Below, piece by piece: positions 10,807 through 35,045 of a stretch of DNA of 64,000 nucleotides. A program made the translations under genes and the position numbers. The notes under the pieces are model-generated. The model was not told the DNA's origin. It worked only from the letters and a program-made list of their open reading frames with translations, and ran no database searches. The stretch's first letter is position 1, and the number at the start of each line of letters is the position of its first letter. The stretch is from Tropicibacter sp. R16_0 (GTDB taxonomy: Bacteria > Pseudomonadota > Alphaproteobacteria > Rhodobacterales > Rhodobacteraceae). Location of the stretch: NCBI RefSeq assembly GCF_017743935.1, contig NZ_JAGHRE010000001.1:62001-126000 (forward strand). Reading direction: 5' to 3'.

Positions 10807-10810
10807 ACAA

Positions 10811-11036
10811 CTCGGGGGTGCTCCCGCGCCCGAGCGATCCTGACTGCGTCAGCCCCGCCAACGGCCTTGGGCCGGGCGCCTCGCCTGCGGCTCGGCGCGG
10901 TCGCGGTAAGACGCGCACAGTTTGTTTGGTCGCAAACGGGTGCTGCAAGCACCCACCGCCGAGCGGAGCGAGGCCCGGCCCAACGGGAGGAGATGCCCCG
11001 TCAGGGGCATCGACGACGGGCGGGAGCGCTTCGCCT
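10811..11036 (+). repeat. Structured intergenic repeat, copy A (between convergent genes)
   Basis: The element fills the 244-bp gap between the acyl-CoA synthetase (+) and rpe (-). Outer stem: CTCCCGCGCCCG (10821-10832) with CGGGCGGGAG (11017-11026). Inner perfect 11-bp stem: TTGGGCCGGGC (10867-10877) with GCCCGGCCCAA (10973-10983). Internal hairpins: GGGTGCT/AGCACCC (10938-10954) and GATGCCCC/GGGGCATC (10992-11011). Sequence blocks are shared with the elements at 16758, 25291 and 34839, all in the same orientation. Function unknown; a bidirectional transcription-stop or mRNA 3'-end structure is plausible. Confidence 0.75.
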
Positions 11037-11050
11037 CTTGAATGGAACCG

Positions 11051-11740
11051 TTAGACGTAGACGCCCTCGGCTGCTGCGCGGACGGCGCGGATGTTCTCGC
11101 CATAAACGTCGGGGTTCGAAACGGAACCGCCGCGGAACACGGCCGAGCCTGCGACCAGCACATCGGCACCAGCCTGGGCCACCAGAGGGGCCGTATTCGG
11201 ATCAACGCCACCGTCGATTTCGATGTGAACGGGGCGGTCCCCAATCATCTCGCGCAGGCGGCGGACCTTGCTGGTCATGTCGATGAACTTCTGTCCGCCA
11301 AAGCCCGGGTTGACGGTCATCACGCAGACCAGGTCCGTCAGATCCAGCAGATGTTCCACGGCTTCGGCCGGAGTCCCTGGGTTCAGCGCGACGCCTGCCT
11401 TCATACCCGCGGCGCGAATGGCCTGCAGGGTACGGTGCGTGTGCGGCCCCGCCTCGACATGTGCGGTCAGTACATCAGCACCTGCATCTGCATAGGCGTC
11501 GATGTAGGGATCAACCGGAGCAATCATAAGGTGTACGTCCATCACTGTTTTCACATGCGGACGGAAGGCTTTGACCGCCATCGGGCCGAAGGTCAGGTTC
11601 GGCACAAAGTGCCCGTCCATCACATCCACATGCACCCAATCCGCGCCTTGCGCTTCGATGGCTTGGATTTCCTGGCCAAAGTTCGCGAAATCGGCGGACA
11701 GGATCGACGGGGCGATCTTGATGGAACGGTCAAAGGTCAT
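11051..11740 (-). CDS. rpe: Ribulose-phosphate 3-epimerase
   Basis: This TIM-barrel enzyme interconverts ribulose 5-phosphate and xylulose 5-phosphate in the pentose phosphate and Calvin pathways. Motifs are classic: APSILSADFANFG, HVDVMDGHFVPNLTFGP (metal His and Asp), DVHLMI, VMTVNPGFGGQKFI, and EIDGGVDPNTAPL followed by VAGSAVF. ATG at 11740 is preferred because AGGTG lies just upstream; a GTG three codons earlier is possible. The gene is divergent from phnC and may share a regulatory gap with it. Ribose-phosphate handling links loosely to the C-P lyase pathway, which yields phosphoribosyl products, but rpe is usually a housekeeping gene. Confidence 0.95.
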   Translation of the reverse strand: MTFDRSIKIAPSILSADFANFGQEIQAIEAQGADWVHVDVMDGHFVPNLTFGPMAVKAFRPHVKTVMDVHLMIAPVDPYIDAYADAGADVLTAHVEAGPHTHRTLQAIRAAGMKAGVALNPGTPAEAVEHLLDLTDLVCVMTVNPGFGGQKFIDMTSKVRRLREMIGDRPVHIEIDGGVDPNTAPLVAQAGADVLVAGSAVFRGGSVSNPDVYGENIRAVRAAAEGVYV

Positions 11741-11968
11741 GAGTGGCACCTGAATGTGAGTGAAACCGAGCGAGTCGCTGGCTCATATAGGCCCAAATGC
11801 TGCGCGCGAACAGAGGAAGAGCAGGATTTGACCCTGTCTCGGAGCTTCCAATCGTCTGGTTTTATCACTGGATCCGCCAATTCGGTCGTTACAAAACCTT
11901 CACCGCTTCGACACATACGTTTTGTCTTTGCCCCTTAGCCACCCGACATCAATCACTGGGGGTGGCTC
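11741..11968. promoter_or_regulatory. Divergent promoter region of rpe and phnC
   Basis: A 228-bp gap between divergent genes with a visibly AT-richer stretch around 11860-11935. A weak resemblance to a PhoB half-site exists (CCTTCACC at 11897-11904), but a good tandem Pho box is not visible. Promoter elements cannot be placed with confidence. Confidence 0.35.
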
Positions 11969-12787
11969 GTGCTGCGGATCAACAAACTTACCAAACGCTT
12001 TGGCGCAAACACCGCTGTCGATGCGGCGACGCTGGATGTGGACAAGCCCTGCATGATCGGGATCATCGGTCGCTCTGGTGCGGGTAAATCGACACTCCTG
12101 CGCATGCTGAACCGCCTCGAAGAAACAACCGAGGGCACGATCACGTTTGAGGGTCGAGACGTCACCGCCCTCAAAGGCAAGGACAAGCGCGCCTGGCAGG
12201 CCGAATGCGCCATGATCTTTCAGCAGTTCAACCTGGTGCCACGTCTTGATGTGGTGTCGAACGTTCTGCACGGCACGCTCAACCGCCGCTCGACGCTGTC
12301 GACCATGTTCAACCTCTTTCCCATGGCCGACATTCACAAGGCCATCGACATCCTGGATCGTCTGGGCATCGCCGAGCATGCCCCCAAACGGGCCGAAGCT
12401 CTCTCAGGTGGCCAGCAGCAGCGCGTGGCCATTGCGCGCGCCCTGATGCAAGACCCCAAGATCATCCTGGCGGACGAACCCATTGCCTCGCTAGACCCCA
12501 TGAACGCCCAGGTGGTGATGCAGGCCCTGCGCCGTATCCACGAAGAAGACGGTCGCACGGTGATTGCCAACCTGCACACGCTGGATACAGCACGCCGCTA
12601 TTGTGACCGCGTGGTCGGCATGCGCGACGGGCGCATCGTGTTCGACGGCTTGCCTGAACAGCTGACCACGGGTGTCGCCCGCGAGATCTATGGCGCTGGC
12701 GCCGATTTCTCCGAGGCCGCGACCTCGACCGAGATCGACACACTGGAAGCCGCTTCAACGGCAAACCCCGTCAAAGAAGCGGTCTGA
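11969..12787 (+). CDS. phnC: Phosphonate ABC transporter ATP-binding protein
   Basis: A 272-residue ABC ATPase that powers phosphonate import. Walker A is GRSGAGKST (about residue 35), the signature [15 protein letters not shown], and Walker [14 protein letters not shown]. It starts with GTG at 11969 after a GGGGGTGG ribosome site. It heads a four-gene uptake operon with phnD and two phnE genes, the usual composition for phosphonate/phosphite importers. Specificity rests on PhnD rather than on this subunit. Confidence 0.93.
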
Positions 12788-12856
12788 TCCGCTCCAATCC
12801 CTTTCATCACCCGGGCCCGATGGGGGGTCGGGAAAACTTAACCGGAGAACCCAAAG

Positions 12857-13759
12857 ATGAAAAAACTGATCGCAGCCCTCGTGGCAACCACAGCCCTGGC
12901 AGCACCAGCCATGGCAGAAGAAATCAAGGAATTCCGCATCGGCCTGCTGGGTGGCGAAAACGCTCAGGACCGTCTGAACAACAACGAATGCCTGCGCGCC
13001 AAGACCGAGGAACTGCTGGGCGTTCCGACCAAGCTGTTTGCCCCTGCCGACTATAACGGCGTGATCCAGGGTCTGCTGGGCGGCACCATCGACATGGCTT
13101 GGCTGGGTGCATCTGGCTATGCAAAGACCTATCTGTCGGACCCCGAAGCGGTTGAGCCGATCCTGGTCAAGGTCAACAACGACGGCGGCTATGGCTACTA
13201 CTCGATCGGTTTTGCCCGCAAGGACAGCGGCATCACTTCGCTGGCCGAAATGAAAGACAAGACCTTTGGTTTTGGCGACCCGAACTCGACCTCTGGCTTC
13301 CTGATCCCCTCGATCGAGATTCCCGAAGAGACCGGCGCGACCATGACCTCGGGCGACTATTTTGGTGAGGTCAAGTTCACCGGTGGCCACGAGCAGACCA
13401 TCGTTGCTGTGAACAACGGTGACGTTGATGGCGGTGTGACCTGGGCTGACGGTCTGGGCGAATGGGAAGACGGCTACAACTCGGGCGCGCTGCGCCGCGC
13501 GGTTGACGCGGGCCTCGTGGACATGAACGACCTGGTCAAAATCTGGCAGTCCAAGCCGATCCCCGAAGGTCCGATCGTTCTACGCAAGGCTCTGCCCGAA
13601 GACGTCAAAGTCAAATTCACCGCTCTGATGGCCTCGCTGCCGTCGATGGACCCCGATTGCGCCTATGGCGTTCTGTCGGGCGAAGCCAAGGGTGTTCAGC
13701 CTATCGGTCATGACGCGTACGAAGTGATCATCGAAGCGCGCAAGCTGAAGTCCAACTGA
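12857..13759 (+). CDS. phnD: Phosphonate ABC transporter substrate-binding protein
   Basis: A 300-residue periplasmic binding protein. A Sec signal peptide of about 21 residues ends in APAMA before EEIKEF. The family fold of type II binding proteins is seen in FRIGLLGGENAQDRL, the GLLGGTIDMAWLGASGYAKTY region and the conserved FGDPNSTSGFLIP and GHEQTIVAVNNGDVDGG segments that line the phosphonate site. GGAG precedes the ATG. It is followed by a strong intrinsic terminator, so its transcript is probably the most abundant of the operon. Substrates may include 2-aminoethylphosphonate or methylphosphonate; sequence alone does not decide. Confidence 0.93.
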   Translation: MKKLIAALVATTALAAPAMAEEIKEFRIGLLGGENAQDRLNNNECLRAKTEELLGVPTKLFAPADYNGVIQGLLGGTIDMAWLGASGYAKTYLSDPEAVEPILVKVNNDGGYGYYSIGFARKDSGITSLAEMKDKTFGFGDPNSTSGFLIPSIEIPEETGATMTSGDYFGEVKFTGGHEQTIVAVNNGDVDGGVTWADGLGEWEDGYNSGALRRAVDAGLVDMNDLVKIWQSKPIPEGPIVLRKALPEDVKVKFTALMASLPSMDPDCAYGVLSGEAKGVQPIGHDAYEVIIEARKLKSN

Positions 13760-13776
13760 TTTAAGCACCAAGTTCG

Positions 13777-13809
13777 CGGGGCCTGGCACATACGCCGGGC
13801 CCCGTTTTT
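13777..13809 (+). terminator. Intrinsic terminator/attenuator between phnD and phnE
   Basis: An 11-bp GC-rich stem (13777-13787 with 13794-13804, one G-U pair) with a six-base loop is followed at once by TTTTT (13805-13809). It lies inside the operon, 15 bases before the phnE start codon, so it should lower permease expression relative to the binding protein. Confidence 0.8.
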
Positions 13810-13824
13810 GACGGGAGCATTCCA

Positions 13825-14694
13825 ATGACAGACCTGAGTGCAGGGTCCCCTTCGGTCGCAGACATTCGCGACGATTACTCCGCGCTGGTTCAGCGCAAAC
13901 GGGTCTATGGTGGTATTCTCCTGATCCTCTTCATCAGCTTGATGGTGGCGGGGTTCCGCACCGCAGATGCGCGCAACGCGGGGTCCTTTGCGGACGGATG
14001 GCGCCGCATCCTGGATTACCCGACCGAAGTGTTGAGCGAAGCCTGGGAAAAAGTCGCTCTGCTGCCCGGCCATCTGGCGCATTTCATGCCGGCCCTGATC
14101 GAGACGCTGAACATCGCAGCTGCCTCGACCCTGGTCGGTGCTGTGTTGGGTACGTTCCTGTCACTGCTGGCCACGCGCGGCATGGCGCCTTGGCCTGCTC
14201 TTATCCCGGTTTTCCGCCGGATCAGCGACATTTGCCGAGCCATCCCCGAGATCGTGATTGCGCTGGTGTTGATCTTTGTTCTGGGCGGCGGTCCGGTTCC
14301 GGCGATGATCGCCATCGCCATTCACACGGCCGGTGCTTTGGGCAAGCTGTTCTCGGAAGTGAACGAAAACGCCTCGCTGAAACCGGTTGAGGGGCTGCAG
14401 TCGGTCGGCGCATCCTGGGCGCAGCGGATGTATCTGGGGGTGATCCCGCAGGTTGGCCCGAACTATGTCAGCTATGCGCTGCTGCGGTTCGAAATCAACA
14501 TTCGCGCTTCGGCCATCCTGGGCTTTGTTGGCGCTGGTGGCATCGGCTATGAGCTGCGCAACTCGATGTCCTGGGGGCAGGGGCGCTATGACGAGGCCGC
14601 CGCCATCTTCGTCCTGCTGTTTGTCACAATCGTTCTGGTCGACCAGCTGTCTGGCGTCCTGCGTAATCGCCTGACCCACGGAGCCGCAAAATGA
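13825..14694 (+). CDS. phnE: Phosphonate ABC transporter permease (first)
   Basis: A 289-residue inner-membrane permease. After a cytoplasmic N-terminus there is a membrane helix around residues 30-48, then the permease core beginning LIETLNIAAASTLVGAVLG. The cytoplasmic coupling loop that contacts PhnC is visible as EGLQSVGASWAQRMYLGVIPQ (the EAA-type motif). GGGAG precedes the start. Its stop overlaps the next permease gene by four bases (ATGA), so the two are coupled and likely form a heterodimeric channel. Confidence 0.92.
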   Translation: MTDLSAGSPSVADIRDDYSALVQRKRVYGGILLILFISLMVAGFRTADARNAGSFADGWRRILDYPTEVLSEAWEKVALLPGHLAHFMPALIETLNIAAASTLVGAVLGTFLSLLATRGMAPWPALIPVFRRISDICRAIPEIVIALVLIFVLGGGPVPAMIAIAIHTAGALGKLFSEVNENASLKPVEGLQSVGASWAQRMYLGVIPQVGPNYVSYALLRFEINIRASAILGFVGAGGIGYELRNSMSWGQGRYDEAAAIFVLLFVTIVLVDQLSGVLRNRLTHGAAK

Positions 14695-16061
14695 GCACCT
14701 TTGCAACCAATCTGCCCGTCGAGGCGCTCAAGTCTAAGGCCGACAAGATCTTTGTTCGCAAGCGCATCATGAACTTTGGCCTGCCGATCCTGGTGCTGCT
14801 GTATCTGGCCTATGTGTTCTTCGCCTTCGACGTACCGGGCCTTTATGAAAAAGCCAGTTGGAAGAACGGCAAGACGCTGGTTTCGGACAGCTACAGCTAC
14901 AAGACCCATGTGACCCGCGACAACCGCAATGGCGAGGTATCCGTTGCGATCGAGGGTGAGCGCAAAGGGGAATATCCCGAAGGCATGTCGCCCGACTGGG
15001 TCGAGATGGGCGCAACCACTGTGATCGACCTGGAAGACGGTCATGTTGTGACCTTTGGGGCCGAGAGTATCGAATATGACGTGCCGGGCTATGGTCTGAT
15101 CCGCGCTACGCCGGATCGTCGCAAGGGCGTGCAGGCCGAGCTGCCCGCAGGGGATGTGCCAGATTGGATCAACGTGTCCAAAAACCGTCTGGCGGTGACC
15201 ACGGAGGCGGGCCGTCTGACCGTCACGCGCAACCGGTCCGAAGTGTTCCGCTATTTTACCGGCTGGGAGCTGTTCTGGTTCACCCTCGACAGCCCGTATT
15301 ACGGCAAGGGGCCGGGCGAGCTGATGGGTCTGGCCTTTGCGGGCGAAGCGGGCGCGATCTGGAATGATTTCTGGACCAACAAGATGTGGCGGCATCAGGA
15401 TGTGGCCTGGGCCATTTTCGAGACGATCCTGATGGCTTTCCTGGGCACGCTCGGCGCAGGCCTGGTGGCTTTGCCGCTGGCCTTTATGGCGGCGCGCAAC
15501 TTCAACCCGCTGGGGCCGCTGCGTTTTGGCGTGCGTCGGGTGTTCGACTTTGTCCGTGGTGTCGATGCGTTGATCTGGACCGTTGTGCTGAGCCGGGCCT
15601 TTGGTCCGGGGCCATTGACGGGCGCGCTGGCGATCCTGGTGACGGATACCGGCACCTTCGGCAAGATTTTCTCGGAAGCGCTTGAAAACGTCGACAAGAA
15701 ACAGATCGAGGGTGTGCAATCCACCGGGGCCAACGCGCCGCAGCGCTATCGGTTTGGGGTGATCCCGCAGATCACGCCAGTGCTGATCAGCCAGCTCTTG
15801 TATTTCCTGGAATCCAACACCCGCAGCGCGACCATCATTGGCGCGATCACCGGAGGCGGTATCGGCCTGTTGCTGACGCAGGCGATCATCACCCAGAAGG
15901 ATTGGGAAGAGGTTGCATACTACATCGTGCTGATCATTCTGATGGTGATGTTCATGGATTGGTTCTCGGGCTGGCTGCGCCGCAAGTTGATTTCGGGCGA
16001 AGTCAAATCACCGCGCAAGCGCAAGGCGGATCCAAAGGCGAAGCCCTTCGTTCTGCCCTGA
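14691..16061 (+). CDS. phnE: Phosphonate ABC transporter permease (second, with extra periplasmic domain)
   Basis: A 456-residue PhnE-type permease, about 170 residues longer than its partner. The permease core is in the C-terminal half, with the coupling loop EGVQSTGANAPQRYRFGVIPQ. The additional length lies between the first membrane helix (about residues 25-43) and the second, roughly residues 46-190, and is rich in strands and charged residues, so it should be a periplasmic domain. Such long second permeases are known in alphaproteobacterial phn operons; the role of the extra domain is not known to me. Last gene of the uptake set. Confidence 0.9.
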   Translation: MSTFATNLPVEALKSKADKIFVRKRIMNFGLPILVLLYLAYVFFAFDVPGLYEKASWKNGKTLVSDSYSYKTHVTRDNRNGEVSVAIEGERKGEYPEGMSPDWVEMGATTVIDLEDGHVVTFGAESIEYDVPGYGLIRATPDRRKGVQAELPAGDVPDWINVSKNRLAVTTEAGRLTVTRNRSEVFRYFTGWELFWFTLDSPYYGKGPGELMGLAFAGEAGAIWNDFWTNKMWRHQDVAWAIFETILMAFLGTLGAGLVALPLAFMAARNFNPLGPLRFGVRRVFDFVRGVDALIWTVVLSRAFGPGPLTGALAILVTDTGTFGKIFSEALENVDKKQIEGVQSTGANAPQRYRFGVIPQITPVLISQLLYFLESNTRSATIIGAITGGGIGLLLTQAIITQKDWEEVAYYIVLIILMVMFMDWFSGWLRRKLISGEVKSPRKRKADPKAKPFVLP

Positions 16062-16131
16062 AACTGAGAAATCGAAGCGTCGCTGATGGAGATGATCTGT
16101 CAGTGACGTTTTCCTTGAGAAAGACCACAAT

Positions 16132-16752
16132 ATGACCCAGCCCCGGCTGAAGCCTGACGCGCCCTTCCTCCACCCCGATTGCCAAATCCACGACAGCCAG
16201 TTTGGAGCCTATGTCGAGATCGGCGCAGGCACCCGGCTGAACAACACGATCTGGGGGGATTACTCTTATTGTGATCGAACCTGTGATGTGGCCAATGCCC
16301 AGATCGGCAAATTCTCCAACATCGCCAGCTTCACCCGGATCGGGGCGACAGATCACCCGATGGAAAAAGCCTCCCTGCACCATTTCCACTATCGCTCGGC
16401 GGATTACTGGACGGATGTTGAGCATGATGCGGACTGGTTCGCCTATCGTGCCAGCCGAATGGCGCAAATTGGCCATGATACCTGGATCGGTCACGCGGCC
16501 ATCATCAAGCCCGAGGTCACAATCGGCCACGGCGCGGTGATCGCATCCGGAGCTGTTGTGACCAAAGATGTGGCCCCCTACACAATTGTGGCAGGCGTTG
16601 CAGCCACCGAAGTGCGCCGCCGGTTCCCTGAACAGGTTGCCGAACGCATGATGGAACTCGCCTGGTGGGATTGGGGCCATGAGGTCCTGCGCGACCGACT
16701 CGCTGACTTTCGCGCGCTGAAGGCCGAGGCGTTCTTGGAGAAGTACGCTTGA
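16132..16752 (+). CDS. Phosphonate metabolism hexapeptide-repeat transferase
   Basis: A 206-residue left-handed beta-helix protein. Hexapeptide repeats are seen in IGAGTRLNNTIWGDYS and again in IGHDTWIGHAAIIKPEVTIGHGAVIASGAVVTKDV. The central WF/HH-rich loop (HHFHYRSADYW) is typical of the acetyltransferase-like family that accompanies C-P lyase genes. Acetylation of an aminophosphonate before cleavage, as PhnO does, is an attractive role but unproven here. It lies 70 bases after the transport genes and is convergent with phnF. Confidence 0.83.
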   Translation: MTQPRLKPDAPFLHPDCQIHDSQFGAYVEIGAGTRLNNTIWGDYSYCDRTCDVANAQIGKFSNIASFTRIGATDHPMEKASLHHFHYRSADYWTDVEHDADWFAYRASRMAQIGHDTWIGHAAIIKPEVTIGHGAVIASGAVVTKDVAPYTIVAGVAATEVRRRFPEQVAERMMELAWWDWGHEVLRDRLADFRALKAEAFLEKYA

Positions 16753-16757
16753 GCCAT

Positions 16758-16960
16758 TCGGGGGCACTCCCGCGCCCGCGCTGATCCCGGCTTCGCCGAA
16801 ATCGCTGGCGGCCTTGGGCCGGGCGCCTCGCCTTCGGCTCGGCGCGCCCGCGCGTGGGGCGACTGTTTTGCCACAATTGCCAACCGCCGCGCGCAGCGCG
16901 GCCCGGCCCAACGGGAGGAGGGCATCTTAGATGCCTGATCGACGGGCGGGAGCGCTCCGC
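16758..16960 (+). repeat. Structured intergenic repeat, copy B (between convergent genes)
   Basis: Second full copy, occupying the gap between the hexapeptide transferase (+) and phnF (-). Outer stem CTCCCGCGCCCG (16767-16778) with CGGGCGGGAG (16943-16952); inner stem TTGGGCCGGGC (16814-16824) with GCCCGGCCCAA (16901-16911). The hairpin next to the right outer arm is GGCATC/GATGCC (16921-16935), different in sequence from copy A but equal in place and shape. A further hairpin CCGCGC/GCGCGG is at 16887-16901. Confidence 0.75.
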
Positions 16961-17671
16961 CTATGTTTCCCCCAAGGTCAGCGTGACGTGATCGCCGGCG
17001 AACCAGGTGCGCCCAAACTCGACCGGCGCCCCATGCGGGTCGACATTGACGCCCACCGATTGCATCACTGGCGCCCCTTCTGGAACGCGCAGGTGCAAGG
17101 CTTGCGTTGCACTGGCGCGACGGGCCGTCAGTCGGGTCCATTTGCGGGTGTAGTCCGGGATGCCGAGCCCTTGCAGTGCGCGGGTGACGGATTGGGTGTC
17201 TTCGAGGGCCTGCAGCATGTCGGGAAAGCGGCCAGCTGGAAAGACACTCTGGAACACCGCGATCGGCAGCCCATCGGCGAGCGAAAGCCCATCATAGACA
17301 TGCACTTGGTCTCCGGTTTCCAAACCCAAAGCTTCGGCTTCTTGTGCGTCGGCCGCGCGTGTGGTTAGCGCCAGGATCTGCTTGCCGGGGATCTTGCCGC
17401 TGGCCGAGATGTTCTGATGGTATCTCACCCGCCTGCCGATGGGATACTCGGTTGGTCGCGCCGCAACGAAGACACCCGCGCCGCGTCGCGCGTGCACCAG
17501 TCCCTGTTCTGATAGTTCGGCCAAAGCCCGCCGTACCGTATGGCGGTTCACGCCATGGGTTGCGGACAGTTGCGCTTCGGTCGGCAGGCGGTCGCCATTG
17601 CGGTATCGGCCCTCGGCAATGTCCGAGGTGAGGCTGGCGGCGATGGTTTTCCAGACGGGCGTGCGGCTCAT
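16961..17671 (-). CDS. phnF: GntR-family repressor of the phosphonate cluster (PhnF)
   Basis: A 236-residue regulator of the HutC subfamily. The N-terminal winged helix (about residues 8-75) reads LTSDIAEGRYRNGDRLPTEAQL then HGVNRHTVRRALAELSEQGLV; the C-terminal UTRA effector domain follows. It is transcribed away from phnG across a 103-bp gap holding an inverted repeat of the GntR type, and thus probably represses phnGHI-JKLN and itself until a phosphonate-derived ligand is bound. Location and family agree with PhnF of other C-P lyase clusters. Confidence 0.9.
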   Translation of the reverse strand: MSRTPVWKTIAASLTSDIAEGRYRNGDRLPTEAQLSATHGVNRHTVRRALAELSEQGLVHARRGAGVFVAARPTEYPIGRRVRYHQNISASGKIPGKQILALTTRAADAQEAEALGLETGDQVHVYDGLSLADGLPIAVFQSVFPAGRFPDMLQALEDTQSVTRALQGLGIPDYTRKWTRLTARRASATQALHLRVPEGAPVMQSVGVNVDPHGAPVEFGRTWFAGDHVTLTLGET

Positions 17672-17698
17672 GTCATCAAATCTTCACAAGATGCAGGA

Positions 17699-17727
17699 TT
17701 GCGGGGCGACCCCTAAATCCGTATGAT
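17699..17727 (+). promoter_or_regulatory. Predicted phnG promoter
   Basis: TTGCGG (17699-17704) and TATGAT (17722-17727) are separated by exactly 17 bases, a fair sigma-70 match. The start point would be near 17734, inside the inverted repeat listed next. Confidence 0.45.
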
Positions 17728-17756
17728 TTGTCTAGTTGTATAGTTGTTGTAGACAA
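17728..17756. promoter_or_regulatory. Candidate PhnF operator
   Basis: TTGTCTA (17728-17734) and TAGACAA (17750-17756) form perfect 7-bp arms around 15 bases that contain the direct repeat TAGTTGT (17733-17739 and 17741-17747). It lies just downstream of the predicted -10 box and about 18 bases before the phnG ATG, the right place for repression by the divergent GntR protein. Confidence 0.55.
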
Positions 17757-17774
17757 CTTCGCCAAGAGGCTAAA

Positions 17775-18233
17775 ATGGCAAATGAGATGAATATCGGCAA
17801 TTCAGCGCGCAAAGCGTGGATGAGCCTTATGGCGTCCGCGCCCGAGGGGGCGATGATGGCGCTATGGGATGCGGTGGATGACCGCCCCAAATTTGACTGG
17901 CTGCGCGCGCCCGAAGTGGGGGGCGTCATGGTGCGGGGTCGTATGGGCGGCACTGGCGCGCCCTTCAATGTGGGCGAGATGACCGTGACCCGCTGTTCGC
18001 TGGTTCTGAAGGACGGCACCGTTGGCCATGGCTACGTGCAGGGCCGCTCCAAGCCCAAGGCCGAAGCCGCCGCATTGATTGATGCCCTGATGCAAACCGA
18101 GGCGGCTGACAGTGTGCAACGTGATGTTCTGTCACCGTTGGCAGATCAGGTGGCCCAAGCCAAGACAGAGCGTGCTGCAAAGGCAGCCGCGACCAAGGTG
18201 GAATTTTTCACCATGGTGCGAGGAGAAGACTGA
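17775..18233 (+). CDS. phnG: C-P lyase subunit PhnG
   Basis: A 152-residue subunit of the PhnGHIJ core complex. The family pattern is seen in ARKAWMSLMASAPEGAMMALW and in MVRGRMGGTGAPFNVGEMTVTRCSL followed by GYVQGRSKPKAEAAAL. With PhnI it transfers the phosphonate to the ribose of ATP, releasing adenine. ATG at 17775 follows AAGAGG; a longer reading frame to 17736 would run into the operator and is not used. Its stop and the phnH start share bases (TGATG). Confidence 0.93.
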   Translation: MANEMNIGNSARKAWMSLMASAPEGAMMALWDAVDDRPKFDWLRAPEVGGVMVRGRMGGTGAPFNVGEMTVTRCSLVLKDGTVGHGYVQGRSKPKAEAAALIDALMQTEAADSVQRDVLSPLADQVAQAKTERAAKAAATKVEFFTMVRGED

Positions 18234-18808: not shown

Positions 18809-18811
18809 GGC

Positions 18812-22135: not shown

Positions 22136-22147
22136 GGGGCGAGAGAG

Positions 22148-24038: not shown

Positions 24039-24091
24039 ATTGGCCTCCTATGTCGTGGCCTTCCCAATAGCTCAAACCACGTGAAGTTCAG

Positions 24092-25234: not shown

Positions 25235-25290
25235 CGTCAGGCGCTCTCGTCCTGTGATGCGGCCAGGACAGCAGAAACCGGGTGCGTCTT

Positions 25291-25383
25291 GCGAGGCTCA
25301 TCCGGCTCAGTCCGGATGAGCCAGGCCCAACCAGAGGAGGTGTCCCGTCAGGGGCATCGACGATGGGCGGGAGCCTCCCCGTC
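25291..25383 (+). repeat. Structured intergenic repeat, copy C (partial)
   Basis: The right part of the repeat lies between phnM (+) and the methyltransferase (-): GGCCCAACCAGAGGAG, then a hairpin TGTCCC/GGGGCA (25341-25356, one G-U pair), then GGGCGGGAG. The left half is replaced by a perfect 11-bp hairpin, GGCTCATCCGG (25295-25305) with CCGGATGAGCC (25312-25322). No T-run follows. Confidence 0.6.
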
Positions 25384-25395
25384 TTTCGCGCCGCT

Positions 25396-27781: not shown

Positions 27782-28359
27782 GCAGCGTCCTCACGGATCA
27801 GCCGGACAGGTTCCGCCTGGGGTTCAAACGTTTCAAGGTCGACGACAAACAATCGGTTGCGCTTGATTTTGAACGGGGCCTCGCCGTCAAAATCCCATCC
27901 GTGCGCCTTGGCCAGGATAACCCGCATGATCCCGATGTGACACACGGCGACCGTGTCCGCGGTGCGCGCGCGAACCCAGGGCTCCAGCCTCGCCCACAAC
28001 TCACGCGGGCTTTCACCTCCGGGCGCGCGGTAATCCCATCCCCAATGCTCGATGTGGCGAAACCCGCTGTCCGGTTGCGCCAACAGATCGATGCCACGTT
28101 TGCCTTCCCAGTCGCCCCAGTTCATCTCGGTCAGTTCGGGCGCGGTCAGTGGCGTGCGCCTGGCCACGATCTCGGCGGTTTCGCGGGCGCGGTGCAGGGG
28201 GCTCGACCATAGTTCTGCATCGGCCCACTCGGGTGGCAGGCTGAACTGGGACAGATCGCGGCGGGCCTCGTCATCCAGCGGAATATCGCTGCGCCCCTGG
28301 ATCTGACCCGCACGGTTCCACGCGGTATGTCCATGACGAAGAAGAGCAAGACGGGTCAT
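27778..28359 (-). CDS. Histidine phosphatase family protein
   Basis: A 193-residue phosphoglycerate-mutase-like phosphatase. The catalytic motif LLRHGHTAWNRAGQIQGR is at the N-terminus, and the second histidine in VAVCHIGIMRVIL. ATG at 28359 is used because it places the RHG motif at the usual distance from the start and overlaps the previous gene by ATGA; the longer frame lies in the coding part of the neighbour. In a glycan operon it may dephosphorylate a sugar phosphate. Confidence 0.86.
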   Translation of the reverse strand: MTRLALLRHGHTAWNRAGQIQGRSDIPLDDEARRDLSQFSLPPEWADAELWSSPLHRARETAEIVARRTPLTAPELTEMNWGDWEGKRGIDLLAQPDSGFRHIEHWGWDYRAPGGESPRELWARLEPWVRARTADTVAVCHIGIMRVILAKAHGWDFDGEAPFKIKRNRLFVVDLETFEPQAEPVRLIREDAA

Positions 28360-29435
28360 CGGGAGCCTTTCAAAAGCGGGGCAACGGCAGACCAGAACCG
28401 CGCGGTTGCGGCAGGCCTTAGGTGGGTGTTTGCGATCATCTCGCGGGCGTTTGCACCCCATGTTGCGCGATGGTCGGCATCGTGCAAGAGCGACGTGACC
28501 AGAGACGCAAGCGCCTTTGCTCCGTCTTCTGTTGCAGGGTACCCATCGCCCAGCAGAACATCCCTTACGCCTGGGCGGTCCTGTGCCGCCACCGGCAGGC
28601 CATGCGCCTGTGCCTCAAGGTAAACCATGCCGAAGGCCTCATTCACACCCGGCCACAGGAACAGGGCCGCCGCGCGATAGGCTTTGTCCAGCGCAGTGCG
28701 ATCCAACTGCCCCAGAAACCGCACGCGCGACCCATAGGGGGCCATCAGTGCCTCGACCTGTGAGCGGGCAGGGCCGTCGCCTGCGATGTCCAGCTGCCAA
28801 TCGCCTGTCAGATGCACAAGCGTTTCGGCGATGATCTCATACGACCGCAGCTTGTCGCCTTCGCGCATCATGCCGGTTGCCAGCATCGGACCCGAAAGGG
28901 TGCTGGCCTCGGGCAGATGATCGGCGGGCAGAAACGGCGGGAAATGTACCAGGGTTTGTGTGCCTGCGCGTTCGCGTTCAAGGGTGATCAGGTCGTTGGC
29001 CGTCACGTAGAATATCACTCGGGCCGCGTCGCAGGCATCGTGGGCGGCTTGCGCAAACCCAGACCAGGGACCGGTCAATCGGCTGTAGGCCCGGGTGCTT
29101 TCGATCTGGACGTATGGGATATCCAGCGCCGCACAGACGCGGGGCCCGATCAGATCAGGGGCTTTATAGTAGTTGTGGTAGGTGACCCACAGTTCGGTGT
29201 CTCGGGGCAGGTCGCGGATCAGGCGTTCAACTTCACCCTCCGCTTGACGGCGCAAATCTGCCTGCCGCGCCGTGTCGCCTGCCTTGTCATAGATCTTGAG
29301 CTCCGAGACCAGATCGACCTGCGCGTCGTCGCCCTGTCCGATGGCGGTCATCAAGTTGCGCGCCATCTCACGGTCCCCCGAAGGCACCGCGCTATGGGGC
29401 GACTTCATGGGGGCGTAAAAGGCGACGCGGGGCAT
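28356..29435 (-). CDS. Family 4-type glycosyltransferase (first)
   Basis: A 359-residue GT-B glycosyltransferase of the GT4 type. The N-terminus MPRVAFYAPMKSPHSAVPSGDREMAR fits the GT4 acceptor domain, and the C-terminal EX7E region reads WPGVNEAFGMVYLEAQAHGLPVAAQ, with both glutamates. It lies four bases after the preceding glycosyltransferase and overlaps the phosphatase by four. No signal peptide; a cytoplasmic or membrane-associated enzyme. Confidence 0.83.
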   Translation of the reverse strand: MPRVAFYAPMKSPHSAVPSGDREMARNLMTAIGQGDDAQVDLVSELKIYDKAGDTARQADLRRQAEGEVERLIRDLPRDTELWVTYHNYYKAPDLIGPRVCAALDIPYVQIESTRAYSRLTGPWSGFAQAAHDACDAARVIFYVTANDLITLERERAGTQTLVHFPPFLPADHLPEASTLSGPMLATGMMREGDKLRSYEIIAETLVHLTGDWQLDIAGDGPARSQVEALMAPYGSRVRFLGQLDRTALDKAYRAAALFLWPGVNEAFGMVYLEAQAHGLPVAAQDRPGVRDVLLGDGYPATEDGAKALASLVTSLLHDADHRATWGANAREMIANTHLRPAATARFWSAVAPLLKGSR

Positions 29436-29439
29436 GGGC

Positions 29440-30684
29440 TCAGCCGCCCTGCATCAGCTGGGTCAACCGGGACGAAAGGCGCGCGATGCCCGGAGCCATG
29501 CCGAACTCTCCGACCAGGCGGTCATAGGCGGCTGTGGCATAGGCTTGGGCACGTGCGGGATCGCCTGCCAGATCCTGGATGGCCGCGGTCAATTTGGCCG
29601 GGTCATCTTCGACCAGCAGGCCGTGTGTGCCGCTGTCGATGAATTCGGGAATGGCCGAGACCGGGGTCGACAGGATCGGCAGCATTTGCGAGGCCGCCTC
29701 CATCAGCACATTGGGCAACCCGTCGCGGTCGCCGTCTTTGGCGATCCGGCTGGGCAAGACAAACAAATCGGCGGCGCGCATGGCCTCGATCACCTCGGGC
29801 TGATCACATGCACCGCGCCAGGTGATGCGGTCTGCGACACCTGCCTCTTTGGCTTGCGCCTGCAGCGCGTCTTTCAAATCGCCGCCACCGATGTGTGTCC
29901 AATGCCAATCCATGTCTGCAGGCAATTGTGCAAAGGCTGCGATCAGACGGTCAAAGCCCTTCTTTTCGACCAGACGGCCAACCGACATCATGTGAAAGGG
30001 GCTGGACGTGTCGCGCAACGGGCGCTTGGGCGGCGCGGGAAAGCGGGTCAGGTCGAGGCCGTGATAGACCAGATCAACCCGGGCCGGATCATCTGCCATC
30101 TCGCGCAGGTGCTCAGCACCAAAGGCCGTGCAAGTGGCACCAAAGACGGCGCCATGGGTGTCGGCGCTTAGCTTTTCGCGCTTTTCCCATTCGTCAGACG
30201 TCCAGATATCCTTTGCATGGGCGGCAAAGCTCCACGGCAGGCCACGCATGATGGCTGCGTAACGCGCGACCGACGACGGGGTATGCATGAAATGGGCGTA
30301 AAGGCCTTGGGTGCACTCAGGCAATTCTGCGGCCAGAACACAGGCTTGGCCGAAGCGTCGGATGCGGTTGTGAGTCCGGTCGCGCGCCAGATCAGCGCGC
30401 CAGACGCGATAGGCCTCGGCATAACCGGGCAGCTGTTGAGCTGCTGCGCGCGCGCGCCAGATCCGCTCGGGGTCTTCGTACAGGTATTCGGGCAGGTACC
30501 GCACCTGCGCCTTGATCCGGTCGTGCAGCGGGTGGCGCTTTTTGTCGGTGGGATAGCGCAGTGACCAGATGTCAAACGCGTGGCCGCTGTCTTCGAGCGC
30601 GACCAGTTCCTGAGCGATGAATGTCTCGGACAGGCGTGGCCAACCTTTGACCACGATCGCCAGAGGCGGATTTGGGGACGTCAT
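29440..30684 (-). CDS. Family 4-type glycosyltransferase (second)
   Basis: A 414-residue GT4-type glycosyltransferase. The N-terminus IVVKGWPRLSETFIAQELVALE is typical of exopolysaccharide GT4 enzymes, and the C-terminal EX7E motif is in GDRDGLPNVLMEAASQMLPILSTPVSAIPEF. The middle segment MMSVGRLVEKKGFDRLI begins the nucleotide-sugar domain. Start overlaps the preceding gene by four bases (ATGA). Confidence 0.86.
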   Translation of the reverse strand: MTSPNPPLAIVVKGWPRLSETFIAQELVALEDSGHAFDIWSLRYPTDKKRHPLHDRIKAQVRYLPEYLYEDPERIWRARAAAQQLPGYAEAYRVWRADLARDRTHNRIRRFGQACVLAAELPECTQGLYAHFMHTPSSVARYAAIMRGLPWSFAAHAKDIWTSDEWEKREKLSADTHGAVFGATCTAFGAEHLREMADDPARVDLVYHGLDLTRFPAPPKRPLRDTSSPFHMMSVGRLVEKKGFDRLIAAFAQLPADMDWHWTHIGGGDLKDALQAQAKEAGVADRITWRGACDQPEVIEAMRAADLFVLPSRIAKDGDRDGLPNVLMEAASQMLPILSTPVSAIPEFIDSGTHGLLVEDDPAKLTAAIQDLAGDPARAQAYATAAYDRLVGEFGMAPGIARLSSRLTQLMQGG

Positions 30685-31910
30685 TGAGCGGCGTGTTCCG
30701 TCTTGTTGGTCAGCAGGGCGTTCACCCGGCGCGTGACATAATCGAGCCCGTCGAGCAGCCCCGACGAGATGGCCTGCGAGGGTTTGGGCTGCGTTGCCAG
30801 TCCGCGAATGGCCTGAATCATGGTGTCTGGCGTCAACCCGTCGCGGGTTTCATCCAGCATGCGCACCAGCCCCAGGTCCTCGGCGCGGGAGGCGCGCAAC
30901 CATTGTTCCAGACGCGGCGTGGTCCGGGGCACGATCACGGCGGGTTTGTCAAAGGACAGCACCTCGCAAAAGGTGTTATAGCCCCCCATGCAGATCACGC
31001 CCTGGGCGCCTTTGAAGATGGTTTCAATCTGCGATTCGAATCCCACTGCGGTGACGCGCCCATTCAGCGCATCGACGCGGGTTTCAAAATCTTCGCGCAG
31101 CTCACCCGACAGGAACGGGCCATAGACCAGGACCGCGCGTGGGGCGAGTTCGGGGTCTTTTTCATAAGCGCTGAGCACCAGGTCGACCATGGCCTTGCCG
31201 TCACCGCCGCCGCCCGGCGTGATCAGAACATAAGGCTGCTCGGGTGGCTTGCCGTCGGCGTTGGCTTCGCGTCGTAGATAGCCGGTCCAATGCATCCGGG
31301 CCTGGGCATCGGCCGAAAGCGGCAGGCCCGCAGTTGGATCATAGATTGAGCGCAGGCCATAAACCCAGATCTCGTGATAGAACCGCTCGGTCGCGGTCAC
31401 GGCATCCTTGCGTTCCCATTCGGCCGCCAGAACTTCTGGCTCGTCCAGCACATCGCGCAAGCCCAAAACCAGTTTGGTTTTGCCTTCACTTTGCAGCGTC
31501 TCAAGCGTCGGCAATAGCTCGCCGCGAAAACCGGTGGGTTCCTTGTCGACGATCAGAACGTCGGGCTCATATTGTCGGGCTGTGGTGCAAATCAGGCCGG
31601 ACCGCAGATCGGTCACCTCTTCGATGCCCATTCCAATTGTTTGCGAGGCATAAGATCCGTCGCTGCGTTTGGTGACGCCGGGGAGACGTACGTGATCGAC
31701 TCGCCGCGGAAAGGTGAAACGGCCCGCAACAGGCGACCCAGTCAGGATCAAGGCAGACGCCTCTGGATCTGCGGCCGTGATGGCGGCCGCCAAGGCGCGG
31801 GACCGTCGCAAATGACCCAAGCCAAAGGTGTCGTGACTGTACAGCATGATGCGCGGCGCTCGGCACCCGCCCTTGTGTACTGTCTTGATTGCGTCCCCGC
31901 CCATGTTCAC
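30681..31910 (-). CDS. Predicted glycosyltransferase (COG4671-like), first gene of glycan operon
   Basis: A 409-residue GT-B protein with the N-terminal motif RIMLYSHDTFGLGHLRRSRALA and the C-terminal GVICMGGYNTFCEVLSFDKPAVIVPRTTPRLEQ, both conserved in the COG4671 predicted glycosyltransferases. GTG at 31910 is supported by GAGG eight bases upstream; an ATG two codons later lacks one. It heads a run of seven genes (31910 to 25396) with almost no gaps. The COG4671 family has no firm biochemical function known to me. Confidence 0.8.
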   Translation of the reverse strand: MNMGGDAIKTVHKGGCRAPRIMLYSHDTFGLGHLRRSRALAAAITAADPEASALILTGSPVAGRFTFPRRVDHVRLPGVTKRSDGSYASQTIGMGIEEVTDLRSGLICTTARQYEPDVLIVDKEPTGFRGELLPTLETLQSEGKTKLVLGLRDVLDEPEVLAAEWERKDAVTATERFYHEIWVYGLRSIYDPTAGLPLSADAQARMHWTGYLRREANADGKPPEQPYVLITPGGGGDGKAMVDLVLSAYEKDPELAPRAVLVYGPFLSGELREDFETRVDALNGRVTAVGFESQIETIFKGAQGVICMGGYNTFCEVLSFDKPAVIVPRTTPRLEQWLRASRAEDLGLVRMLDETRDGLTPDTMIQAIRGLATQPKPSQAISSGLLDGLDYVTRRVNALLTNKTEHAAQ

Positions 31911-32467
31911 GTTGTAGACCTCGGAATAGCTCCGGACAAATTGGTTGCTTCGAGCGCACCGTAGCGAATTGTGCGGCGAATTCCAAAGCCTCGAATTTGG
32001 GCAGCATTCATTTGGTCATTTGCCACGTGCGCTGCTGCCACATCATCTGCTTCGCCACTTTGAATGAACGGCGCTTTGATGCAGGTCAATCCGAAGTTTT
32101 CAGCCAAGCTGGATAGAGCGCAGAAACAGGCGGACAGTTGGGCAACAGCTGATCCGAAGTGCGCCCAGTCGATGGCGTCGTGCGAGGGGCGTGCCGTCAT
32201 GGCCAAGTCCTATGGTCGGCCGATCTGCGTCGGCTGTTATCCTTCGTGCAGGCACGGTATGAACGTCACAGCCGTCTTGCCCTTCTGTGTGCTCTACTAT
32301 TTGACCCGAACGAGATTGAAAATACGATATTGCTCATGAAAAAGGTGGATCGGTCACGTGACACCGTTGTTTACCCAATGTCGGCACTGTGTAAGCAAGC
32401 CATTTGAACAACATGCACCTGTCCGATAGGTTCTCTGCCAGGTTCAGTTAACCAAAGAAAGACCTCC
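31911..32467. other. 557-bp divergent intergenic region
   Basis: This gap lies between the glycan operon (-) and mscS (+) and is visibly poorer in GC than its surroundings. Short reading frames on both strands (for example 31907-32206 minus and 32064-32339 plus) have no recognisable domain or convincing ribosome site. I see no RNA gene. It may hold promoter elements and degraded sequence. Confidence 0.5.
32301..32328 (+). promoter_or_regulatory. Possible promoter for mscS
   Basis: TTGACC (32301-32306) and TACGAT (32323-32328) are 16 bases apart, about 140 bases before the mscS ATG. The match is moderate and the leader long. Confidence 0.3.
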
Positions 32468-34831
32468 ATGCTGACCATTGTTCTTCGCATTCTTGCAATG
32501 TTGGCGCTGTTCTTCGTGGTGTCCACCACAACCGCACATGCCCAGTTGTCACTTTATTCTGGCGCGGGTGGCTCCAGCAGCAGTGAAACCCCGGCGGACA
32601 CGGATCTGGCAACGGCCATTCGTGAAGCAACCGAAGCCGGTGCCAGTGTCATCGTCATCGACAGTTCCGGCAACCTGGCAACGGCGGGGCAAACACCCGG
32701 TGCCGATGGAGAGGGCGAGAAGGCTGACCCGATGGGCGAAGCCTCGCAGCTGATGCAGGCGCAATCGCAATGGGCCGAGTTCCGCAAAGCGCTGGAAGCG
32801 CGCCTTGCAGCTTTGCCTTATTCGATTTTCGAGGTGCAATATATCCTGCGCCAGACCAGCCCCGACGGTCAGATCAGCACTTACCTGTGGGTTTTGGCAA
32901 TCAACATCGTCCTGCTTCTGATTGGGCGATGGTTGTCCGTGGAAATCTATGGAAAGCGGGTTGCCAAGAAATACGTGGTGTCGCGGATCAAGGAAAACCC
33001 GGTCGGGTATCAGGACAAGATGCCGTTCCTGGTGTTCCGGTTCGTCATGGGGATCGGTGGCACGCTGTTTGCGATGCTGTTTGCCACGATCATTGGCTTG
33101 TTGGTCTTTGGCGAGTCCGAAGACATTTCGATCCAGTTCACTGTCACGGCGATTTTCACGGCGTATTTCTTGTCGCGCACTGTTTCCGATCTTTGGCGGA
33201 TGGTCTTGTCGCCATTCCTGAGCCAATACCGTATCCCTCCGTTTTCGGACAAGGATGCCAAGCGGCTGTACATTTGGGCGTCGGTTCTGGCGACCTATGA
33301 CATTTCGACGGTGCTGTTCTCTACCTGGGTCGCGGATTTTGGTCTGAACTACAACGTCTACGCCATGGTTTATGGTGTGCTGACAGCAGCGGGTGCTGCG
33401 TTCAACGTGCTGATGATCCTGTTCAACGCCAGGGCCATTACAGAGGCCATTCGCGCGGGTCGCAGCAAAGAGCAGGTCTCGTGGATCCTTTGGGCGATTT
33501 CGATCGCATGGGCTCCGGTGCTGATCCTGTATATCGCGTTCAGCTGGTTCTCTCTGGCGTTGGATCTGGTGCTGGAGAACCCGATTCCGATTCCGCTGAT
33601 TGCCGGCACCTACGGAATATTCATGTCCGTCGTCGTTGCCTATGGCGCGATGAACTACATGTTGGAGCGGTACTTCAACCGGTCACGCAAGGTGCAGCAG
33701 ATCAACGCTGAACTGGCCGAAGCCGAGGCCAGTGAAGACCCCCAACCGGCTCCGCCGATGGAGTTGGCGCATTCGATCTCGACCTATGAGGATCTGGCAC
33801 GTCGGGTGGCGGGCATCCTGGCCTTTGTGGTTGGGGCCTATGCCCTGCTGGTGATCTGGAACCCCGATGCCGATTGGACCCAGGATCTGCCGATGGAGCG
33901 GGTTCTGGACGTGATGATGATCCTGTTCATCGGCTATGTCGTCTTCCACTTTTTCCGCATCTGGATTGACAGCAAGATCGCCGAAGAAGGTGGAGACATG
34001 GAAGAAGGCGAACTGGGGGACGAGGGCGGTGGCTCATCCGCCAGCCGTCTGGCGACCCTGTTGCCGCTGTTCAGGGGTGCGATCCTGGCCGTTGTTGTAG
34101 TATCGATCGTTTTGATCGTGTTGCTGGAGATCGGCATCAACGTGAGCCCGCTGTTCGCGGGTGCGGGTGTTGTTGGTCTGGCGGTGGGTTTCGGCTCGCA
34201 AACGTTGGTGCGGGACATCTTCTCGGGCGCGTTTTTCCTGCTGGACGACGCGTTCCGCAAGGGGGAATACATCGACATCGGCGATGTGAAGGGCACCGTC
34301 GAAAAGATTTCGGTCCGGTCGTTCCAGTTGCGCCACCATCTGGGTGCGCTCAACACCATTCCCTTTGGTGAAATCAAGGTTCTGACGAACTACTCGCGTG
34401 ACTGGGTGATCATGAAGTTGCCCCTGCGGGTGACCTATGACACCGACGTGGAAAAGGTGCGCAAACTGATCAAGAACCTCGGGAAAGAGCTGCTGACCGA
34501 CCCCGTGATCGGCGACAACTTCATCCAGCCTCTGAAATCGCAGGGTGTGATCGAGATGCAGGATTCCGCAATGATCATCCGGGTCAAGTTCATGACCAAA
34601 CCGGGCGATCAATGGCTGGTGCGCAAACGTGTGTATCAAGACATCCGCGAGTTGTTTGCCCGCGAAGGCGTCAAGTTTGCACACCGTGAGGTCACGGTGC
34701 GTCTGGCAGACGAGAAAGAAGCGGGCGATCTGACCCCCAAACAGCGCGAGGCTGTGACAGGTGCTGTTCAAGCGGCCATTGACGAGGATTACCTTGACGA
34801 TATCGGACCGGGGGGCGGCGACCGCGACTAA
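32468..34831 (+). CDS. Large MscS-family mechanosensitive channel
   Basis: A 787-residue inner-membrane channel protein. A signal peptide (MLTIVLRILAMLALFF to AHAQ) is followed by a periplasmic segment, about eight membrane helices in the middle, and a C-terminal MscS core from roughly residue 560. The pore helix and beta domain are recognised by AGVVGLAVGFGSQTLVRDIFSG, then EYIDIGDVKGTVEKIS and LNTIPFGEIKVLTNYSRDW. Length and layout match the larger MscK/YbiO-type members, which open on membrane tension to release solutes during osmotic downshock, of use to a marine cell entering fresher water. Confidence 0.9.
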   Translation: MLTIVLRILAMLALFFVVSTTTAHAQLSLYSGAGGSSSSETPADTDLATAIREATEAGASVIVIDSSGNLATAGQTPGADGEGEKADPMGEASQLMQAQSQWAEFRKALEARLAALPYSIFEVQYILRQTSPDGQISTYLWVLAINIVLLLIGRWLSVEIYGKRVAKKYVVSRIKENPVGYQDKMPFLVFRFVMGIGGTLFAMLFATIIGLLVFGESEDISIQFTVTAIFTAYFLSRTVSDLWRMVLSPFLSQYRIPPFSDKDAKRLYIWASVLATYDISTVLFSTWVADFGLNYNVYAMVYGVLTAAGAAFNVLMILFNARAITEAIRAGRSKEQVSWILWAISIAWAPVLILYIAFSWFSLALDLVLENPIPIPLIAGTYGIFMSVVVAYGAMNYMLERYFNRSRKVQQINAELAEAEASEDPQPAPPMELAHSISTYEDLARRVAGILAFVVGAYALLVIWNPDADWTQDLPMERVLDVMMILFIGYVVFHFFRIWIDSKIAEEGGDMEEGELGDEGGGSSASRLATLLPLFRGAILAVVVVSIVLIVLLEIGINVSPLFAGAGVVGLAVGFGSQTLVRDIFSGAFFLLDDAFRKGEYIDIGDVKGTVEKISVRSFQLRHHLGALNTIPFGEIKVLTNYSRDWVIMKLPLRVTYDTDVEKVRKLIKNLGKELLTDPVIGDNFIQPLKSQGVIEMQDSAMIIRVKFMTKPGDQWLVRKRVYQDIRELFAREGVKFAHREVTVRLADEKEAGDLTPKQREAVTGAVQAAIDEDYLDDIGPGGGDRD

Positions 34832-34838
34832 GGATCAA

Positions 34839-35036
34839 GGGCGGGGCGCTCCCGCCCTCTTGGTGCCTTTCTGACGAAAGACCCCTCGGGGTTGGGCCGG
34901 GCGCCTCGCCTTCGGCTCGGCGCGGTTGCGTTGCGCGGCTGATCGGGCGTGCCCTCTCAGTCGGTGTAGAGCGCTCTATTTCGTTCCTTTTGAAAATGCA
35001 CCGGGAGGAGGGGCAGCGACGAGGGCCAAGCCCCCG
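34839..35036 (+). repeat. Structured intergenic repeat, copy D (diverged)
   Basis: Fourth copy, between mscS (+) and the peptide permease gene (-). It opens with a perfect hairpin GGGCGGG/CCCGCCC (34839-34857), keeps the conserved core from GTTGGGCCGGGC (34891 on) through the TTC-loop hairpin, and ends with CGGGAGGAGGGG and a GAGGGC block near 35020. The middle (34930-35000) is unlike the other copies and AT-richer. Confidence 0.65.
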
Positions 35037-35045
35037 TCATCTGGC

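Follow-up and report, generated by a model that had tools for sequence, protein, structure and literature searches.

A directional repeat unit between convergent genes of Tropicibacter with base pairing that points to a strand-specific RNA

Related GC-rich sequence is present in four gaps between convergent genes in a 64,000-nucleotide stretch of the Tropicibacter sp. R16_0 genome (contig NZ_JAGHRE010000001.1, positions 62,001 to 126,000), hereafter the window. The gaps, which hold copies A to D, span window positions 10807-11050, 16753-16960, 25235-25395 and 34832-35045, and a preliminary description of the window was right to place each copy between a plus-strand and a minus-strand gene. We resolved them into a directional unit of ~90 nucleotides (nt), present either singly or as an inverted pair. 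Judged from its sequence, the unit probably marks message ends, and we give about even chances to its being an inherited RNA module by which transcripts are ended, or protected, shortly before they reach the opposing gene.

Results

Unit anatomy

In the basic unit, a first hairpin (H1) is followed by the word GGCCCAACGGGA and a second hairpin (H2), and these in turn by the word GACGGGCGGGAG and a short end hairpin. In the sense reading, GGCCCAACGGGA is usually followed by GGAG before H2, and GACGGGCGGGAG by a pyrimidine stretch able to pair back (GGGCG-GGAG-YGYYY). Three models were used to find it: R1, a covariance model of 30 full copies; R2, the right part alone (59 nt); and R3, the left part. 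R2 matches left units on the opposite strand at 20.5-22.9 bits, and R3 matches right units at 18.6-23.7 bits. Because the two models cross-match on opposite strands, a pair consists of two related inverted units, whose 5′ ends are central and whose 3′ ends point outward. With the copies set in one orientation, the outer parts are conserved and the spacer varies in length; copies C and D fitted only once each outer part was treated as a separate unit.

RNAalifold, run on 30 copies, gives a single large fold composed of outer and inner stems plus two arms; among the long-range pairs of this fold, G.U likewise outnumbers A.C on the plus strand. We rejected the fold as the main model because an entire local H1 is present in each half, no dependence is detectable between the H1 types of the left (L) and right (R) units within pairs (chi-square p 0.27) and single units keep the same hairpins, although the large fold could still form within a pair. 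What the preliminary description drew as an 11-bp inner stem and a CTCCCG/CGGGAG outer stem are words common to two inverted units, between whose H1 types no dependence was detected.

Copy number and genomic placement

The repeat is far beyond chance in its own genome (5.24 Mb, 37 contigs). Copy A gave at least 44 blastn matches there (40 best of 179 candidates scored), and R1 gave at least 128 (150 of 3647 candidates scored). From the R1 matches we kept 67 distinct places, down to 48.1 bits, dropping opposite-strand duplicates and weaker rows, several of which were later found to be single units. With R2, the count of R-type units is at least 149, the number of matches among 150 scored candidates (from 2586 first-look candidates). 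Of these hits, 67 lie inside R1 places, with one hit in 61 places, two in 3 and none in 3, and 82 lie outside. We refer to the 67 R1 places as pairs and to the 82 outside hits as singles, some of which may have a decayed partner.

All junctions were defined by our own simple gene caller, with the annotation not used as a check. The pairs fall into 50 convergent, 17 tandem and 0 divergent junctions (n = 67). Read in the frame of the unit, the singles comprise 53 in convergent gaps, 19 with both genes running against the unit (−−), 10 with both running along it (++) and 0 in divergent gaps (n = 82). The 3′ end of the unit lies close to the opposing stop codon, at a median of 15 nt in the 53 convergent singles and 18 nt in the 50 convergent pairs, where 63 of 100 ends are within 25 nt.

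To these counts we added an unbiased sample of 20 systematic 20-kb stretches plus the window (464 kb, 398 gaps), in which occupancy was scored with R2 at E up to about 0.01 and one pair was detected via its left unit. Convergent gaps held a unit in 12 of 63 cases, tandem gaps in 1 of 275 and divergent gaps in 0 of 60 (Fisher p about 1e-9), bearing out the enrichment at convergent junctions. Among gaps of 150-400 bp the numbers were 11 of 12, 1 of 38 and 0 of 24, respectively (Fisher p 3e-11). The window supplies 4 of the 12 unit-bearing convergent gaps and was chosen for them; after removal of the window and one overlapping stretch, units remained in 8 of 55 convergent, 1 of 233 tandem and 0 of 52 divergent gaps (p 2e-6), and, for gaps of 150-400 bp, in 7 of 8, 1 of 37 and 0 of 21.

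Within the window, the gene caller finds seven convergent junctions rather than the nine of the preliminary description, whose count of four carriers stands. The remaining three gaps measure −19, 2 and −4 bp, so that every convergent gap called at >20 bp contains the element. Neither unit model, R2 or R3, matches anything in the rest of the window at E<=1, in agreement with the claim that its tandem and divergent gaps hold no copy. As a separate observation, contig ends in draft genomes are often found no more than ~300 nt away from a unit (G018 C3, C6, C7, C10 and C11; G064 C89 and C102), as if assemblies break at these palindromes.

Covariation and strand-specific pairing

A gapless alignment was made from 26 of the 82 singles, chosen by a 16-bp H1 and exact length. 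Across H1, H2 and the end hairpin, 96.8% of its pairs are standard, compared with 25-44% after a shift of 1-3 columns. Both partners have changed in 11 pairs, none of them within the end hairpin. Significance was assessed against a null in which substitutions were permuted along a tree, using our own script modelled on R-scape, not R-scape itself. Covariation was significant for 5 of 29 pairs in the 26 singles, for 3 of 13 in the alignment of 88 distinct R units and for 4 of 14 in that of 47 L units; a stricter all-pairs test gave 1, 2 and 1 hits in the three alignments, all four inside the structure. The preliminary description had noted that the short hairpin, H2, changes its sequence and keeps its pairing; the same holds, at a significant level, for H1, and the covariation is stronger than it had claimed. 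Neither of the outcomes that it had named as refuting, a lack of enrichment at convergent junctions and a lack of significant covariation, was observed.

Wobble pairs distinguish the two strands. Read in sense, 102 distinct H2 hairpins contain 62 G.U and 6 A.C, and L units read in their own sense contain 12 G.U and 1 A.C, counts whose cells share ancestry, so that binomial p values overstate certainty. As L units sit on the strand opposite to R units, one replication-strand mutation bias cannot account for both biases. In pairs, H1 has a 2x2 site that was parsed in 84 L units and 88 R units and is either GA/GA or fully paired in 81 and 85 of them, respectively (another 17 L and 9 R units were left unparsed, and 4 R units were not located); read antisense, the GA/GA site is a TC/TC mismatch. 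An end profile around GGGAG, built from 147 of the 149 units, has pyrimidines only (96-98%) at positions 3-5 after this motif, facing G in the end hairpin. The wobble in H2 and the tandem G.A in paired H1 are both tied to the strand on which the unit itself lies, and this points to RNA.

Conservation within the genus and beyond

At sites A to D, the unit or pair is kept between the same genes in all three other genus genomes (12/12, by eye). The comparison was extended to 46 copies, taken from the best-scoring hits of the three congeneric genomes and set against loci of the R16_0 genome that were mostly chosen for carrying elements. For 43 of the 46 copies, both flanks lie at an element-bearing R16_0 junction (20/20, 17/20 and 6/6), with flank identity of 73-95%; one of the 43 (L154) matches over 38 nt only, within a 900-bp gap. 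The other three have no counterpart among the loci compared and could be empty sites; none was seen among the junctions of the 46 sampled copies. Copy alignments reveal spacer sequence common to non-orthologous pairs, and therefore copies spread earlier.

Outside the genus, the unit is present, with other hairpins, in further Rhodobacteraceae. Of 159 family genomes, 20 match R2 at E<=1e-4 (34 candidates scored in each), including two from this genus, and six of the others hold at least 33, 39, 31, 15, 12 and 8 copies at E<=1e-5 (150 candidates scored). R1, which represents the full pair, matches 17 of 394 family genomes at E<=1e-6 (6 candidates scored each). The exact two-word pattern occurs in 27 stretches of a collection of 84,980 species genomes, among them Tropicimonas, Mangrovicoccus, Ruegeria sp. 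HKCCD8929 and uncultured Rhodobacteraceae.

We examined 42 top-scoring loci of other genera, of which 21 are convergent, 11 −−, 7 ++ and 1 divergent, with another 2 at contig ends. An exact copy of the first word is present at 35 of these loci and of the second word at 39; across the loci there are 39 distinct H1 and 41 distinct H2 sequences, and H2 again favours G.U (17 versus 4). Since R2 rewards both words, their constancy is partly selected; the changing yet paired hairpins are not. The stretch after GGGA varies among these genera. An H2 core of GCATCTNTGATGC, or near it, recurs across genera beside freely varying stems (L315, L322, L330, L364, L367, L369, L371 and L375) and is also present in the R16_0 genome (L017, L021 and L029); a second common H2 class has a GNNA-type loop closed by C-G. 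A plasmid or phage origin was set aside, as one full copy, the only query used (single units were not searched), matched nothing in the plasmid and phage collections at E<=1e-5.

Copies in the window

Copy A is an inverted pair. Its L-type unit (10812..10902, sense on the minus strand) scores 84.7 bits with R3, and 22.9 bits with R2 over 10812-10873; from the outer edge it reads end hairpin and CTCCCGC, then an H2-like arm, TTGGGCC and H1. The R-type unit (10956..11035, sense on the plus strand; R2 80 bits for 10977-11035) has the order H1, GGCCCAACGGGAGGAG, H2 (ATGCCCC/GGGGCAT) and GACGACGGGCGGGAG. The spacer between them, at 10903..10955 and assigned to no strand, varies in length and sequence in the copy alignments and at orthologous site A. 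Copy B has the same layout, with an L-type unit at 16758..16849 (sense on minus; R3 58.7 bits, R2 22.9 bits for 16758-16820) and an R-type unit at 16884..16961 (sense on plus; R2 62.3 bits for 16905-16961), the latter with an H2 of the class GGGCATC/GATGCCT. H1 was placed by eye in all four units. At the orthologue of site B in one congeneric genome (G001, L175), the spacer and both separate H1 are lost, and one compact hairpin joins the word arms.

Copy C is a single R-type unit on the plus strand (25293..25382; R2 71.4 bits for 25324-25382). Its own H1, GAGGCTCATCCGG/CCGGATGAGCC, keeps its pairing in three relatives (by eye). Copy D is a single divergent unit with its sense on the minus strand (34840..34925; R2 36.2 bits for 34840-34898), and a 90% identical copy lies elsewhere in the same genome (G000:C36:215655-215747). 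The sequence behind it (34936-35036) resembles a second unit and may be its decayed remnant; in another congeneric genome (G003, L187), ~60 nt are missing behind unit D.

These assignments revise the preliminary description, in which all four copies shared one orientation, C was partial and D was a diverged copy. MAFFT had likewise placed C and D against A and B as same-oriented, masking the orientation of D. The cross-matches of R2 and R3 on opposite strands instead divide A and B into two inverted units each, C is a single unit with an H1 of its own, and D is a single unit on the minus strand.

Comparison with known elements

Known RNA families do not account for the unit. Rfam covariance models gave 0 matches at the gathering threshold in the window, and 2 and 1 sub-threshold hits, none on the unit core, at 4 loci searched at E<=5 and 9 loci searched at E<=1; with nothing above threshold in the window or these selected loci, a known Rfam RNA was ruled out. 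An integron attC site carries RYYYAAC and then GTTRRRY around the folded site. The unit has GCCCAAC, lacks the later GTTRRRY and shows the reversed order in pairs (by eye), and an attC site was therefore rejected. GTAG-tagged repetitive extragenic palindromes (REPs) and REPINs, which are mobilized by RAYT, resemble the unit as numerous extragenic palindromes, often in inverted pairs and near 3′ ends. They differ in that the unit consensus has no GTAG tag and that RAYT (Y1_Tnp, PF01797) was found in 0 of 4 genus genomes, with the control positive in 5 of 14; a RAYT-driven REP was rejected on this ground.

The unit is closest in kind to the CGTC-tagged REPs, as these are described in the main text of Di Nocera et al. 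2013 (PMC3733652). According to that text, they are found mostly in alpha-Proteobacteria, have no transposase and lie no more than 20 bp from the 3′ ends of convergent genes; they form inverted dimers, whose spacers are variable and can contain hairpins. Each is 20-40 bp long, with one hairpin of an 8-9-bp stem, A-T at the first two positions, mostly a CCA tail and, next to the stem at one end, an unpaired CGTC, TGTC or CCTC (PMC3733652). Rhodobacter, Ruegeria and Roseobacter are not mentioned in the main text of that paper. The unit is alike in having CGTC (in antisense) near the foot of one hairpin, in forming inverted dimers with variable spacers, in lying near convergent 3′ ends and in the failure to find RAYT. 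The tag is present in the other genera as well, where GACG in sense (CGTC in antisense) precedes the end word in 40 of 42 loci, and in Falsiruegeria the A, C and G of this word stand at 0.90, 0.86 and 0.92 (73 units). In places 0-4 nt separate GACG from the stem, and L units are without it.

The unit is unlike these REPs in its length of ~90 nt, with H1, H2, an end hairpin and two conserved 12-base words, and in having no CCA tail, its conserved sequence on the tail side being TCCCGTTGGGCC in antisense. The stem also departs from the published pattern: the 26 genus singles have A-U/U-A only after one further pair, and H2 of other genera starts freely, with 41 of 42 stems distinct. Because size, tail, fixed words and stem freedom differ, we do not file the unit as a member, a judgement made on the published description.

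Classical bidirectional intrinsic terminators also place GC hairpins between convergent genes. The unit differs from them by its conserved linker words, by being far longer and by having no U-tract in 147 of 149 regions, as judged with a strict detector. Two Rhodobacterales motifs, HRC-8-4 and uORFC-8-2, are structured RNA motifs of the same order. As described in PMC8632094, their sites are for the most part close to cco operons and upstream of cysS, and HRC-8-4 is a terminator-like stem with a conserved tip. Neither is described there from many convergent gaps, and we set them apart on this description. The word GGCCCAACGGGA was not found in a literature text search, and literature on Rhodobacterales repeats, motifs, terminators and REPs, mostly judged by title, contained no title that describes the unit.

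Discussion

We hold an RNA module at message ends to be the most likely reading of the evidence assembled here. Each ~90-nt unit would act in a transcript entering from its 5′ side. The RNA would fold into H1 (in pairs often with tandem G.A), GGCCCAACGGGA, H2 and, at the GACGGGCGGGAG end, a short GC hairpin. It would set the 3′ end of that message only a few nucleotides ahead of the opposing gene's stop codon, either through termination or by blocking 3′ exonucleases. Two inverted units would serve a junction both ways, such that converging messages would end before becoming antisense to the neighbouring gene, and −− singles would stop stray antisense transcription entering the 3′ end of a gene. 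What the sequences show is where the units lie, how they are built, that they covary, that their pairing is strand-specific and that their positions are shared across the genus; transcript ends at the units, the mechanism behind them and a protein that reads the conserved words are inferred. A further step, which we put forward tentatively, is a lineage-specific way of ending transcripts, in which a three-hairpin RNA code (GGCCCAACGGGA / GACGGGCGGGAG), single or as an inverted pair at the border of opposing genes, is read by a putative factor.

Several observations weigh against an RNA module of this kind. The weakest point is the −− singles, because no called gene drives them: 19 of the 82 singles lie where no called gene transcribes the unit in sense, tRNA genes checked at 36 loci supplied no overlooked sense gene at the tandem cases, and in other genera 11 of 42 loci have both neighbours opposing the unit. 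H1 of singles shows no G.U preference (8 versus 13). The strict U-tract terminator detector, applied to the element with short flanks, was positive for two pairs out of 67 and for none of the 82 singles; it was used in place of a loose detector that was positive in 12 of 59 divergent gaps. Over whole gaps, the strict detector was positive in 3 of 12 convergent gaps with a unit and in 9 of 19 without one; for unit-free tandem gaps the count was 19 of 143, and for divergent gaps 1 of 55. The difference between 3 of 12 and 9 of 19 is not significant (p 0.27), and we therefore make no claim that units replace classical terminators. T is mildly enriched 9-13 nt after GGGAG (0.25-0.42), perhaps partly from the opposing stop codons there.

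Short unit-free convergent gaps contain terminators of the A-tract, GC hairpin and T-tract type (L338 3053-3160, L338 10268-10396, L345 5614-5681 and L356 5436-5504), which suggests that convergent 3′ ends come in two kinds in this genome. The bidirectional terminator or 3′-end stabilizer offered in the preliminary description survives as the best, still putative, reading, shorn of the classical U-tract.

Mobility offers the strongest rival, which we nevertheless find doubtful. The unit would be a REP-like, non-autonomous mobile palindrome akin to the CGTC-tagged REPs, which spread early, survives where it does least harm and has no required function, the inverted pair being a dimer. Spacer sequence common to non-orthologous pairs does record a spread of copies, −− singles would be as natural as ++ singles, and a precedent exists in the inverted dimers that CGTC-tagged REPs form within 20 bp of convergent 3′ ends without a transposase, as the main text of PMC3733652 reports. 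Insertion, however, should be tolerated equally at tandem 3′ ends, yet only 1 of 275 tandem gaps is occupied, and neutral decay predicts neither compensatory change nor wobble on one strand. With 43 of 46 sampled positions shared across the genus, no empty site seen and RAYT absent from all four genus genomes, the mobile repeat suggested in the preliminary description is weakened for the present, while its earlier spread holds.

An element acting as DNA, such as a cruciform or a protein site (for example, for gyrase) that handles positive supercoils between converging genes, appears unlikely. Some REP dimers bind gyrase, and both the convergent placement and the near-perfect H1 palindromes without strand bias would suit such a role. 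The wobble of H2 and of L units and the tandem G.A sites point instead to RNA on a definite strand, opposite within a pair, and singles are as numerous as pairs. Least probable of all is that the unit is the 3′ part of a small RNA (sRNA) gene, or an antisense RNA, with its own promoter: the −− singles would require such a promoter, and the antisense of GGGAGGAGG is CCUCCUCCC, a motif of Rhodobacter stress sRNAs, but at least 149 units tied to gene 3′ ends are unlike an sRNA family, the stretch after GGGA is variable in other genera and no Rfam family matched in the window or the selected loci.

Palindromic extragenic repeats are often treated as debris or described vaguely as 'transcribed'. 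Here, one family occupies 11 of 12 sampled mid-sized convergent gaps, stays put throughout a genus and has base pairs that indicate selection on a strand-specific RNA; whether REP-like elements are functional 3′ ends or parasites thereby becomes directly testable. If the lineage-specific code were true, converging messages would be kept from being mutually antisense, and a factor that reads the conserved words, should there be one, would add a new component to the way in which an abundant marine group defines its transcript ends.

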